Shown one piece after another: positions 41,128 to 46,318 of a DNA stretch of 46,318 nucleotides. The notes below the pieces were generated by a model. The model ran no database searches. It was not told the DNA's origin and saw nothing but the letters and a program-made list of their open reading frames with translations. Made by a program: the position numbers and the translations under genes. This DNA is from a virus: the IMG/VR virus record IMGVR_UViG_3300042294_003496, positions 1-46,318 of that record. One strand, written 5' to 3'. The number at the start of each line of letters is the position of its first letter. Within the stretch, counting starts at the first letter, position 1.

Positions 41128-41604
41128 ATCCGTAGATCAAACGCAAGTTATAAGGGGTGCTACAAACCAAAAAACCCACAAAAATACAAAGGAGACCCCA
41201 ACAACTGTTTTTATCGTTCACTTTGGGAAAGAAAGTTCATGTTGTTTTGTGACGAAAACTCATCGGTGCTGGAATGGTCTTCGGAGGAAGTTATTATTCC
41301 CTATACCTCACCAATAGATGGAAAAGTTCACAGATACTTTGTTGATTTTTGGATAAAGGTTTTGTCGAAAGATGGAAATAAACGAGTATACCTCATAGAA
41401 ATTAAGCCCAAATCACAAACTAAAAAACCAAATCCGCCCAAGTCAAAAAAAGTGTCCAAGTCAAAACTAACAGAAATGAAAAATTGGATGATTAATTCTG
41501 CAAAATGGAACGCTGCTAGAAAAATTTGTGAGGATAAAGGGTGGGAGTTTAAAATTCTGACTGAGGACAATTTATTCACAAAGAACGGAACCAGTAATGA
41601 GTAA
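41128..41604 (+). CDS. gp4: Head-completion nuclease gp4, probable AUC start
   Basis: Head completion protein of the PD-(D/E)xK nuclease fold, needed to finish the filled head; 158 residues (T4 150). Nuclease residues: D73 in HRYFVDFWIKV and E91-x-K93 in YLIEIKPK; further conserved WSSEEVIIPYTSPIDGK at about 50-66 and INSAKWNAARK with WEFKILTE near the end. The first ATG is at 41239, but the 37 codons before it are open and encode the conserved gp4 N-terminus YKPKNPQKYKGDP and FYRSLWERKFM. That frame has a TAA at 41098-41100 and no ATG, GTG or TTG; the only start matching AAGGAGG is ATC at 41128. First gene of the plus-strand block; overlaps the next gene by eight bases. Confidence 0.88.
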   Translation: MRRSNASYKGCYKPKNPQKYKGDPNNCFYRSLWERKFMLFCDENSSVLEWSSEEVIIPYTSPIDGKVHRYFVDFWIKVLSKDGNKRVYLIEIKPKSQTKKPNPPKSKKVSKSKLTEMKNWMINSAKWNAARKICEDKGWEFKILTEDNLFTKNGTSNE

Positions 41605-42201: not shown

Positions 42202-43182
42202 ATGACCTTTGTAGACAAATTCTATAGTGCAATCAGACAAAAGGGCGTAATGCGGCCCAATAGGTTTGTCATGTTGATTGATGTTCCCCCTAGTGTGGCC
42301 AGATATTTGGGGTATTCATCGATAGAAATAAAAGAAAGACTTGCCTTAACGGTTAGTTCGGTCACATTACCGGCAAAATCTTTTTTTACTCATGAAATGG
42401 ATATCTCAACTCCAACTAGACTGATTCCATATGGAATAAATTCAAACAACACATCTGGTATTTCATTTGAGTTTAATGTGTTAACTGACATGTTTGAAAA
42501 AAACTTGTTTGAAAAGTGGCAAAATCTAATAGTAGATCCAAAAACGAAACAAGTTGGATTTTATGATGACTACGCCAAATCATGTTCGATATACATCATG
42601 CAACTCCCCTCTTTTGTTCAAAGTTTAGACCAAGCGATAGAATTTTTAGGACAAGATTTAGGGGCAAATAGTATAAAGTTGACAGAAGTGTACCCTTACA
42701 GCGTGGTACTCAATAATGGATCACTAAACTACACACAAAGTATAGAACCACTAAAAATGAAAGTGGATTTTATGTACCGTGAAGTTCTTCGTGGAGGAGA
42801 ATCTCCGGCAAAAGATATAGGAATACCTGTCATAGACAGTCAAGGAAGATTCACACGGACATTAAAAGATCCGTCAGAAATACCTTTTGTTAATAGTAAC
42901 GAAAATTTTGTTAGAAATGGACTAGTTAATGTCACAGCAGAAGATGCTATCAGGGATTGGGAGCAGATTCAGCGAAGAGAAACGCAGTCAATGCTTGAAA
43001 AAATAGAAGAGAGAAAAAAGTATGATCAGCGTAGTAATGTGCCTAAAGGCGTTGATGGAAGACTAATAAAACCAAAAGTTGATGGTCTTCCTGGACAAAA
43101 TCCAAATGACGAAATAAGAAACATATTCAATCAAGCACTTACTTTTATCTCACAGGGACAAGGATTTTTAGGACAACTATAA
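42202..43182 (+). CDS. gp54: Baseplate tail-tube initiator gp54-like
   Basis: A 326-residue protein (T4 gp54 is 320) that, with gp48, starts tube polymerisation on the hub. The tube-like beta domain is visible: RPNRFVMLIDVPPSVARYLG, LALTVSSVTLPAKSFFTHEM, SGISFEFNVLTDMFEKNLFE and the closing strand EPLKMKVDFMYREVL (residues about 18-198), the same layout as tube proteins (first strand, SVTLP turn, F-x-x-W-x-x-x-I helix). The C-terminal 120 residues are charged and helical, then Gly/Gln-rich. It begins five bases after the stop of the 199-residue gene; no strong ribosome binding site is seen. Assignment rests on fold pattern, size and neighbours. Confidence 0.78.
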   Translation: MTFVDKFYSAIRQKGVMRPNRFVMLIDVPPSVARYLGYSSIEIKERLALTVSSVTLPAKSFFTHEMDISTPTRLIPYGINSNNTSGISFEFNVLTDMFEKNLFEKWQNLIVDPKTKQVGFYDDYAKSCSIYIMQLPSFVQSLDQAIEFLGQDLGANSIKLTEVYPYSVVLNNGSLNYTQSIEPLKMKVDFMYREVLRGGESPAKDIGIPVIDSQGRFTRTLKDPSEIPFVNSNENFVRNGLVNVTAEDAIRDWEQIQRRETQSMLEKIEERKKYDQRSNVPKGVDGRLIKPKVDGLPGQNPNDEIRNIFNQALTFISQGQGFLGQL

Positions 43183-43206: not shown

Positions 43207-43917
43207 ATGGGAACACTGACTAACTTAGTAGCAACAACACCAACATATGAACTGATTCTTCCAAGCAACAAGAAAAAAATCACATACAGACCTTTTCTTG
43301 TTAAAGAGGAAAAAATACTGCTTATAGCATCAGAGTCGAAAAATGAAAAAGAGATATACAAAGCGATGCAAGATGTGGTAGCAGCGTGTACATTTGGTAA
43401 AATTAATATGACTGAGGCAGCACTTGTTGATATTGAATATTTATTCGTGAATATACGAACAAAGTCTGTTGGAGAAACTGCGAATCCTCAAATTAAATGT
43501 TCTGCCTGTCAACATTCAAATGTAGTAAATGTAAATCTTACTGAACTTAATCCAGATTTTAATCCCGAACACAACAGCAAGATTAATCTCAACGATAGCA
43601 CAATTATTGAAATGAGGTGTCCAACCTATTCCGACATCGAAAAGATGCAGGAAAAAAAGACAGATACCGAAAAGATGTTTACATTAGTTGCGTTGTGTGT
43701 TGATAAAATTTATACACCAGAGCAAACATTCACAGCCAAAGATGTTGGTGTGACTGATGTAACTGAGTTCATTGAGTCTTTATCTCAAAGTCAATTCAGG
43801 AAAATATCTTCTTTCTTTGAAACGATGCCTCAACTGACGAAAGAAGTGTCTTTTAAGTGTAGTGGATGTGGACACGAAAATACAATTACCCTTAAGGGGG
43901 TGGCTGATTTTTTCTAA
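43207..43917 (+). CDS. gp26: Baseplate hub assembly protein gp26-like
   Basis: A 236-residue protein of the gp26 hub-assembly family (T4 208): ITYRPFLVKEEKILLIASES with KEIYKAMQDVVAACTFGKIN (about 25-67) and DIEYLFVNIRTKSVGE are the family signature. Two CxxC pairs, C98/C101 in KCSACQH and C218/C221 in KCSGCGH, probably make a zinc ribbon. The ribosome binding site is AGGGAGA before ATAAAATG. The gene ends in a tandem stop TAATAG. Immediately before it lies a -1 frameshift signal (TTTTTTC), so a minority product may continue into the next ORF. The gene precedes the tape measure, where other long-tailed phages have frameshifting tail assembly chaperones. Confidence 0.88.
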   Translation: MGTLTNLVATTPTYELILPSNKKKITYRPFLVKEEKILLIASESKNEKEIYKAMQDVVAACTFGKINMTEAALVDIEYLFVNIRTKSVGETANPQIKCSACQHSNVVNVNLTELNPDFNPEHNSKINLNDSTIIEMRCPTYSDIEKMQEKKTDTEKMFTLVALCVDKIYTPEQTFTAKDVGVTDVTEFIESLSQSQFRKISSFFETMPQLTKEVSFKCSGCGHENTITLKGVADFF

Positions 43918-44102
43918 TAGCGACCTCCCATGATAGTCTAATGAATCATTACGAAACAAACTTTTCTCTAATGCAACACCACAAGTATTCGCTAACAGAA
44001 ATAGAAGGAATGATTCCTTGGGAGCGTCGAATTTACATAGAAATGTTAATTCATCACCTTAAAGAAGAAAAAGAAATGATGGAAAAGCAGAAAGAATCTT
44101 AA
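43207..44102 (+). CDS. Predicted gp26-ORF53 frameshift fusion, 298 residues
   Basis: If ribosomes slip back one base at 43914, gp26 (236 residues) is extended by LIATSHDSL and the 53 residues of the next ORF, giving 298 residues. The layout (short product, slippery site at its end, small helical extension, tape measure next) equals the G/GT tail assembly chaperones of lambda-type phages and E/E+E' of P2. The pieces would be joined 43207-43914 and 43914-44102. Predicted from sequence only. Confidence 0.6.
43894..43914 (+). promoter_or_regulatory. Predicted programmed -1 ribosomal frameshift signal
   Basis: Slippery heptamer TTTTTTC at 43908-43914 is in the correct register (T TTT TTC) for a -1 slip, directly before the gp26 stop TAA. 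The -1 frame is closed upstream by TGA at 43905-43907, so the two frames overlap in exactly these seven bases. AAGGGGG at 43894-43900, seven bases upstream, resembles the Shine-Dalgarno-like stimulator of bacterial -1 sites. After the slip the frame reads LIATSHDSL and runs straight into the ATG at 43941. Confidence 0.75.
43941..44102 (+). CDS. Small chaperone-like ORF (gp51-like position), likely frameshift partner
   Basis: A 53-residue reading frame, MNHYETNFSLMQHHKYSLTE and onward, with the core YSLTEIEGMIPWERRIYIEM followed by a charged helix LIHHLKEEKEMMEKQKES. The pattern (short helix, Y-S-x-x-E-x-x-x-M/L-P-x-x-E-R, long helix) is that of the T part of tail assembly chaperones. T4 has gene 51 after 26. 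No Shine-Dalgarno precedes the ATG, and the frame is open upstream just to the slippery site, so expression as an extension of gp26 is more likely than free initiation. Confidence 0.75.
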   Translation: MNHYETNFSLMQHHKYSLTEIEGMIPWERRIYIEMLIHHLKEEKEMMEKQKES

Positions 44103-44119: not shown

Positions 44120-46318
44120 ATGGCAAACGAAGGCGAAACTAATCCCAAAAATCAAACCGCACCAGGAAGCGATAGCCAATGGTCTGGTTCATATAATCGT
44201 GAAATGGTTGAACTATTGAGAAATCAATTGGACAATCAAGAGTTTCAGACCAAATATATCAAAGAACTCACAGAGAAGATTGAATCCTCGCAGCGTGAGG
44301 AATTGAATGCAAAGAAGAAACAGTTGGAGGCAGAACTGAAGGGAGATACTGCTGCTCTTGCTATAGCAATAAAGCAGTACGAAGAAGCCAAACTATCAAG
44401 ATCCGAGTCTACAAATAGGTTAAGAGAAATTCAAACCGATGTAGCGGGAACTCAAAGGCAAATCACAGATGCAATTGAAATGATTGCTATTGATTCAAAA
44501 ACACAGATAGATGTAGTAAAAAAAGAACTTGATGCCTCTTTAGATCTCACAAAACAAATCGCAGACACACTATCAGATGCTAAAATCAAAGATAAAACTA
44601 TATTGGTTGAATTTAAGAATTGGTCGAAAGAATTTCTAAAGCAGTCTAAAAAAGAAGAGGATGAAAAATTAAAAGCGGAAAAAGAACTGTCTGACAGAAA
44701 TAAAATTGAAGCAAAGCAGAAACAAAAAGACGAAGAAGAAAATCAAAAAAATAATGAAACCAAAGAACTTGCTCAAGAAGTTCGTAATGCACTTGAACAA
44801 ATTAAAGGATCATCAAACGAAGATACTATTAATAGACTAATTGAAAGAACCGGAGCAAACATACAAAGTCTTTCTGTTGTTCAAAAAATGCTTAGTGATG
44901 CTATGATTGAATCAGGAGTAGATCTCAAAGACGAAACTGCTGTCATGGCTTTCAAGGCAAATTGGGCTAAGGAACAGAAAACCCAAGATAAGATCATTGA
45001 AAAACTCACAGAGATGAGGGATTCAATCCAAAAAGAGAATATACAAAAATCCATATATGAAACAATTGTAAAGCAAGGTGTTAATGAAAGAGTCGCAGAG
45101 ATTCGTGCAGAAAGATTGGCAGAAAAACAATTCCGAGAAGAAACGCAAAAATTAAACAAACAAATAAGTATTTTCAAGAATATTGAGCAGGCATCCTTGA
45201 TTCAAATAGCCGCTGTTGAAAGACAGAACAGGCAAGCAGTCGAGGACAAAAAAGAGATGAAGGAATTACCCGAATGGTATAAAGATCTCAAAGCAAATGT
45301 AAAAATAATAGATGCTCACATAATAGGTTTACGGGATACTATGAGAGAAGGCGGTTGGTTGTTTAAACTCATTGCGATTATAACATTTGCCACGGGATTG
45401 ATAGTTGGAATGGTATCTGCCGCAATAGCAGAAGTATTCGGAATGATTACATCTGCTTTCAAAGGAGGAGGAATCATATCAAGATTTTTCTTGTATTTGA
45501 AAGAAACATTTCCAGCGATAAACAAAATGATCAATGGGATGAAATCATTTTTCATCTTTATCAAAAATGGAACTGCTATAGGTAGATACTTTGTATCAGT
45601 AATTAATAGAACAATAGGTGTTTTTACTACTTTTATTGCGATAATCAAAGATGTACAATTTGGTGCATTAGGATTCATAAAGATACTAAAATCTGTTTTC
45701 GCTCCTGTCATAGAAATATTCAAAATCTTTATGACTTCATTCAGACTTGGTTATGGAATAATGAGTGGTCTATTCAGATTTCTCAGAGTTCTTCGACCAA
45801 TCATTTCATTAATTGGTAGAGCATTCCTCCCACTTACGATAGTGTTGACATTAATCGATGCTGTCATAGGTGCGTTCAAAGGATTTAAAAAAGATGGTAT
45901 ACGAGGATTACTTGTCGGAATATTTGCCGGAATTACAGATGGATTAACTCTAGGATTAATAGGTTTCGATAAAATCTATAAATTCATGAATAACATAATT
46001 GACTCCATAACAAAGGCGTTCAAAAAAATATTAGAACACACATACAATGCGATTAAATTGATTTTCAAGTACAGCCCCATAGGATTGCTTGTCCAAGGAG
46101 TCATGTGGATTTACAATAACTTCAATTCAATTATAAATGCTGCTAAAGAAACATTAATGCTTTTGTGGAAATATAGTCTTCCGAATCTGTTATATCAGGG
46201 AATCAAATATGGAATATCCGCAGCGAAAAAAATTATTGATAACATGAAAACCTTTATAATAGAGGGCATTGAAAAACTTCAATCATTTTTACTCAACTAT
46301 AATCCAATTACATTAATC
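44120..46318 (+). CDS. gp29: Tape measure protein (gp29-like), 3' end outside window
   Basis: Open from ATG at 44120 to the last base: 733 residues without stop. The first 400 residues are charged and helical with heptads and many Lys/Glu/Gln (LRNQLDNQEFQTKYIKELTE and so on), typical of tape measure coiled coils that fix tail length. From residue 413 comes a hydrophobic segment (WLFKLIAIITFATGLIVGMV, then SAAIAEVFGMI), followed by alternating amphipathic and hydrophobic helices with Gly/Phe-rich parts, a feature of tape measures that insert into the host membrane during DNA entry. Already longer than T4 gp29 (590). It follows the gp26 frameshift cassette, the standard place for a tape measure. 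The ribosome binding site is weak. Confidence 0.85.
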   Translation, partial: MANEGETNPKNQTAPGSDSQWSGSYNREMVELLRNQLDNQEFQTKYIKELTEKIESSQREELNAKKKQLEAELKGDTAALAIAIKQYEEAKLSRSESTNRLREIQTDVAGTQRQITDAIEMIAIDSKTQIDVVKKELDASLDLTKQIADTLSDAKIKDKTILVEFKNWSKEFLKQSKKEEDEKLKAEKELSDRNKIEAKQKQKDEEENQKNNETKELAQEVRNALEQIKGSSNEDTINRLIERTGANIQSLSVVQKMLSDAMIESGVDLKDETAVMAFKANWAKEQKTQDKIIEKLTEMRDSIQKENIQKSIYETIVKQGVNERVAEIRAERLAEKQFREETQKLNKQISIFKNIEQASLIQIAAVERQNRQAVEDKKEMKELPEWYKDLKANVKIIDAHIIGLRDTMREGGWLFKLIAIITFATGLIVGMVSAAIAEVFGMITSAFKGGGIISRFFLYLKETFPAINKMINGMKSFFIFIKNGTAIGRYFVSVINRTIGVFTTFIAIIKDVQFGALGFIKILKSVFAPVIEIFKIFMTSFRLGYGIMSGLFRFLRVLRPIISLIGRAFLPLTIVLTLIDAVIGAFKGFKKDGIRGLLVGIFAGITDGLTLGLIGFDKIYKFMNNIIDSITKAFKKILEHTYNAIKLIFKYSPIGLLVQGVMWIYNNFNSIINAAKETLMLLWKYSLPNLLYQGIKYGISAAKKIIDNMKTFIIEGIEKLQSFLLNYNPITLI

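Follow-up and report, generated by a model that had tools for sequence, protein, structure and literature searches.

A probable -1 programmed frameshift joining gp26 to a gp51-like extension beside the tape measure gene of a T4-like phage

Results

Organisation of the gp26 locus

The window (the whole stretch of DNA that was analysed, 46,318 nt in length) contains genes of the gp4, gp2, gp48 and gp53 types and was therefore assigned to a T4-like, contractile-tailed phage. Within it, gp26 (43207..43917, + strand) encodes a protein of 236 residues that ends in ...GVADFF and is closed by TAA at 43915-43917; we consider it a candidate for the short form of a tail assembly chaperone (TAC-N). A second frame, displaced by -1 relative to gp26, is closed on its upstream side by TGA at 43905-43907, is open from 43908 to 44099 and terminates at TAA 44100-44102. 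This extension (43908..44102, + strand; 64 codons, FFLIATSHDSLM... to TAA) is the candidate C-terminal part of gp51, or TAC-NC. The pair is located directly 3' of the tail tube gene (42202..43182, + strand; phrog_3629, E 5.4e-19, and phrog_45, E 3.7e-16) and directly 5' of a tape measure candidate (44120..46318, + strand). The latter extends past the edge of the window, and in contigs G001 and G002 its frame spans 949 codons; a longer copy in contig L006 matches the tail length tape measure protein family phrog_5493 with an E-value of 3.7e-8.

The two frames overlap solely in the heptamer T TTT TTC (43908..43914, + strand), which the gp26 frame divides as (GA)T TTT TTC and which thus has the X XXY YYZ register of a -1 slippery site. 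Seven nucleotides 5' of this site, and within gp26, lies the Shine-Dalgarno-like sequence AAGGGGG (43894..43900, + strand), a putative stimulator. The original prediction had placed the overlap in these seven bases only, in the register of a -1 slip and with AAGGGGG seven bases upstream, and its coordinates for gp26 and the -1 frame all agree with the sequence to the base. An error of assembly in the T run is unlikely, because five further IMG/VR contigs (L004-L008) carry identical letters at the slip locus.

Searches with the protein encoded by gp26 revealed matches to PF12322 (T4_baseplate; E 4.8e-60) and phrog_150 (E 3.4e-62). The extension was found to match phrog_634 (E 9e-26), a family annotated as baseplate hub assembly catalyst, and a second match covers the C-terminal end of phrog_150 (positions 231-281), from which it follows that some members of phrog_150 carry the extension fused in frame. 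These matches identify the small ORF as the C-terminal portion of gp51.

The two parts were modelled as separate chains. AlphaFold returned a gp26 model with a pLDDT of 90, and the extension was predicted to form a helical domain in which helix 1 begins at residue 2. A sequence search of the PDB with both alignments gave no significant match, and neither did a fold search of the PDB, in which the HK97 chaperone gp13 (2ob9) appeared only at E 3.0 with a TM score of 0.33. Comparison of lambda gpG with the gp26 profile was likewise negative, with no detectable similarity. A viral fold search yielded 62 matches at E <= 0.001, covering many phages; those with names were mostly baseplate hub proteins of the gp26 type or uncharacterised proteins, with no named tail chaperone among the best 50 of the 62.

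Conservation of the slip site in relatives of gp26

Relatives of gp26 were collected from IMG/VR using protein patterns that left out the T run, together with annotated phages, and were reduced to a non-redundant set of 95 loci with over 15% difference in DNA. In 91 of these 95, the end of gp26 contains an in-frame T TTT TTY (67 TTTTTTC and 24 TTTTTTT). Annotated phages in which this heptamer is accompanied by a -1 extension comprise ValKK3, Aeromonas phage 65, pf16, phiM7, Acidovorax ACP17, Stenotrophomonas Marzo and Agrobacterium OLIVR5. For the gp26 of Vibrio phage K353, no relatives were found in viral contigs.

The heptamer was missing from four loci, namely L023, L038, L039 and L040. L038 and L039 are of the Ackermannviridae type; L040, a T4-type phage, has gp51 as a separate gene. 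In L023 (836-1512), the gp26 frame is broken before its end and the remainder continues in the -1 frame, which probably reflects either a mistake in sequencing or a pseudogene. A broken heptamer or a different register in related phages had been proposed as grounds for rejecting the frameshift. None was found among relatives that lack a separate gene for the long form, with the exception of the Ackermannviridae described below.

We then compared codon choice around the site in a diverged set of 51 genes with less than 60% amino-acid identity, taking the expectation from the codon usage of those genes. The base before the two phenylalanine codons was T in all 51, as the third position of a codon for D, S, A, N or T; given the amino acids, such constancy has a log10 P of about -12.5. 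The first phenylalanine codon, which would occupy the P site, was always TTT (log10 P about -9.2). Both probabilities assume that the genes are independent, which is only roughly true, and synonymous sites should be near saturation at such divergence. Elsewhere in the same genes, FF was encoded mostly as TTC TTT or TTT TTT, with the heptamer in 3 of 41 instances. These comparisons indicate that the slip-site signal is not a product of chance and that it is kept throughout the relatives.

Coding constraint on the -1 frame

A tblastn search with the extension matched 477 phage records, and nearly all of the matches listed begin at residue 1, which corresponds to the slip site. In records listed with matches to both parts (e.g. 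HQ633071 and KX349301), the frames overlap by seven bases. In a gapless set of 46 relatives, the -1 frame contained 0 stop codons as compared with 93 and 107 in the other two frames, and amino-acid entropy was lowest in the -1 frame (1.52 versus 2.2 and 2.4). The third positions of the -1 frame were the most variable.

No ATG, GTG or TTG occurs within the first 20 codons of the -1 frame in 31 relatives. The same codon-like pattern was nonetheless found across those 20 codons (entropy 1.02, 0.74 and 1.28). By these measures, coding constraint on the -1 frame begins at the slip site, ahead of any start codon.

The first ATG of the -1 frame in the window (43941..43943, + strand) had been described as having no Shine-Dalgarno sequence, and this was borne out: the duplex with the anti-Shine-Dalgarno sequence has an energy of +0.6 kcal/mol at this ATG versus -9.0 kcal/mol at the start of gp26. 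Across the relatives, mean pairing at the first ATG of the -1 frame was -0.53 kcal/mol, as compared with -1.63 at random positions and -4.51 at gp26 starts, and the position of this ATG varied from codon 3 to codon 45 among 91 relatives. Since the first helix of the extension begins at residue 2, a start at 43941 would fall within that helix and cut it.

Possible stimulators of slipping

Pairing of the region upstream of the slip site with the 3' end of 16S rRNA was assessed in the 51 diverged relatives. It amounted to -6.3 kcal/mol versus -4.9 kcal/mol in synonymous randomisations (p 7e-4), and was far stronger than anti-Shine-Dalgarno pairing elsewhere in gp26 (-2.1 kcal/mol). Counted back from the P-site codon, bases 12 and 11 are almost invariably GG. 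The AAGGGGG of the window, to which the original prediction had drawn attention, fits this conserved element, and we infer from the comparison that it may stimulate slipping in the manner of a Shine-Dalgarno sequence. We word this role cautiously because a conserved glycine accounts for part of the upstream signal.

A downstream RNA structure was considered as a further stimulator and dropped. No stable structure was detected downstream in the window (z 0.53 to -0.55). The 51 relatives displayed a weak tendency towards structure (mean z -1.07 over +10 to +90, versus about 0 in control stretches), and alifold detected no common downstream structure among them.

The arrangement resembles that of E. 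coli dnaX, a case of Shine-Dalgarno-stimulated -1 frameshifting in which the heptamer likewise has a Shine-Dalgarno-like element about 10 nt upstream. The dnaX signal differs in using A AAA AAG together with a downstream stem-loop, whereas no clear stem-loop is seen in this window.

Short and long forms in the T4 group and the Ackermannviridae

The original prediction repeated the usual view that T4 lacks a chaperone pair of this kind. This does not hold in its simple form. T4 gp26 and T4 gp51 both belong to PF12322 and both align with the gp26 profile, T4 gp26 over its length (E 7e-19) and T4 gp51 with an E-value of 3e-6. Residues 200-243 of T4 gp51 additionally match the -1 extension (E 1.3e-5, 32% identity), and T4 gp26 has no part that matches it. 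On the evidence of these alignments, the two T4 proteins are paralogues, of which gp26 is the short form and gp51 an in-frame long form. The arrangement suggests a duplication accompanied by in-frame fusion of the extension. In the T4 genome (L034 3803-5229), genes 26 and 51 are neighbours in divergent orientation.

The heptamer was absent from the end of gp26 in 10 of 10 T4-type phages with a separate gp51, drawn from several genera. Six of the 10 retain the FF dipeptide, in every case encoded as TTC TTT. These phages serve as a natural control, since the heptamer is absent where a separate in-frame long form exists.

A different exception is provided by the Ackermannviridae (L038, with gp26 from 3001, L039, L123-L137, L138, L139 and L140), whose extension still lies in frame -1 although these genomes have no X XXY YYZ heptamer, the junctions reading R ATT TTC, G GTT TTC, G GCT TTC or A CTT TTY, and in some of them TAATG is found at the junction of gp26 and the extension. 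One history that would accommodate all three arrangements, and to which we give roughly even chances, is that the one-gene frameshift is the older state in this contractile-tailed branch. The T4 group would then have undergone duplication and in-frame fusion, with loss of the heptamer and retention in most cases of FF, and the Ackermannviridae would employ a non-canonical shift site or reinitiation. If the long form has indeed been rewired in this way, the branch offers a natural series on how the ratio of short to long chaperone is kept under changing decoding signals.

Discussion

The comparison gives strong support to the proposal that a -1 frameshift joins gp26 to the small ORF downstream. 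Frameshifting of this programmed kind at the locus is, on the comparative evidence, very likely; that it yields a short and a long tail chaperone beside the tape measure gene is very probable, and the chaperone role itself, which is argued from position, the short and long layout and the literature, is a likely one. According to this model, gp26 and the small downstream ORF would be one gene that is read in two ways. The majority of ribosomes would halt at TAA 43915 and release the short protein of 236 residues. A minority, slowed by pairing of the upstream AAGGGGG with 16S rRNA, would carry two phenylalanine tRNAs that slip on T TTT TTC to re-pair with TTT TTT, and would continue in the -1 frame to 44102. 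The resulting long form would have about 298 residues and the junction ...DFF-LIATSHDSLM.... The shared part is expected to coat the tape measure protein encoded by the next gene and the extension to recruit tail tube subunits. T4 would obtain both forms from two separate paralogues, gene 26 for the short one and gene 51 for the long one. What the sequences show directly is the layout, a heptamer retained beyond the needs of coding, conservation of the -1 frame as coding sequence starting at the slip site, and the homology that links gp26, T4 gp51 and the extension; slipping itself, the rate at which it occurs, its stimulation by the Shine-Dalgarno-like element and the action of the products as chaperones are inferred.

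An alternative is that the small ORF is a separate gene translated from ATG 43941, either alone or by reinitiation after the gp26 stop codon. The ATG lies 23 bases past that stop codon, and many GenBank records annotate the ORF in precisely this way (gp51, baseplate hub assembly catalyst). Against this stand the 31 relatives that have no start codon in the conserved first 20 codons, the absence of a Shine-Dalgarno sequence, with pairing at the first ATG weaker than the random background and its position variable, and the cut through the first helix. Together, these render a separate gene a poor explanation. It would also leave the conserved heptamer and its register unexplained, and we consider it very unlikely.

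The extra base might instead be supplied by slippage of the transcribing polymerase on the T run. There is indeed a T run at the junction, extended to T7 or T8 in some relatives. Most of the runs consist of six T followed by C, however, and such a run is short for slippage by RNA polymerase; the codon register is moreover fixed across all lineages, and the conserved Shine-Dalgarno-like element upstream points to the ribosome. Transcriptional slippage is accordingly held to be highly improbable. It may finally be argued that a conserved FF in AT-rich genomes yields the heptamer as a by-product and that the -1 frame is fortuitous, a reading favoured by the invariance of the FF dipeptide in the family. 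Codon choice at and before FF, however, departs far from expectation, T4-type phages mostly keep FF in the TTC TTT form, and T TTT TTC is retained by relatives that differ as much as do Acidovorax phage ACP17 (L037) and L077. With the -1 frame under coding constraint in addition, we regard the by-product explanation as scarcely credible.

A 2016 review (PMC5009743) described G-T frameshifting as conserved in long-tailed phages, with T4 excepted. In T4-like phages, the tail assembly chaperones were identified by Vladimirov, Gautam and Davidson (Virology 2022, 566:9-15; cited in both PMC10885494 and PMC12846349). As that work is summarised in PMC10885494, some T4-like phages have one short and one longer, fused gene in place of frameshifting, a relation that corresponds to the one found here between gp26 and gp51. 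PMC12846349 credits the same work with poly-T -1 signals in T4-like TAC-N genes. The suggestion that gp26 and the gp51-position ORF are a chaperone pair connecting hub assembly with the tail chaperone system is likely to be right, but the connection is not new, being preceded by the 2022 paper. So far as the citing articles convey its content, our finding is real, well supported and largely anticipated by that work; the gain lies mostly in annotation and in a clean comparative test case, because the principle was published in 2022.

The nearest known counterparts, gp26 and gp51 of T4-like phages, belong to the same family by sequence (PF12322, phrog_150/634) and have short and long forms as here. 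T4 and phages close to it encode the long form separately, as an in-frame gp51, and have no slip site, whereas the single slip-site locus of the window would serve both. Lambda gpG/gpGT and HK97 gp13/gp14 are alike in lying between the tail tube and tape measure genes, in that order, and in possessing a -1 frame extension; they differ in that gpG has no sequence similarity and gp13 no significant fold match to gp26, and in their use of slip sites other than T TTT TTC. The TAC locus of Vandenendeviridae and Andersonviridae, described for Pseudomonas phage Adele (PMC12846349), also has a -1 shift at a conserved T-rich motif, and its extension was formerly annotated as a separate hypothetical gene, like the extension here. 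In that case, the motif is GTTTTT and the phage families are others.

With a large cyanophage-like and environmental set included, T4-like phages would constitute no exception to the rule of a two-form tail chaperone in long-tailed phages. Most probably, the small gp51 genes annotated for numerous cyanophages are no genes of their own and represent the tail end of gp26. Some GenBank records leave the extension unannotated and others enter it as an independent gene (L001, L002 and many cyanophage records); both treatments are probably wrong.

Two further features of the window were observed. Its gp26 (43207-43917) contains two CxxC pairs (CSAC and CSGC) resembling a zinc ribbon, with weak matches to Pfam zinc-ribbon families, and one or both pairs are lost in several relatives. 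The gp4-like head closure protein (41239-41601) matches the N-terminal Pfam domain of TnsA-like endonucleases with an E-value of 3e-24.
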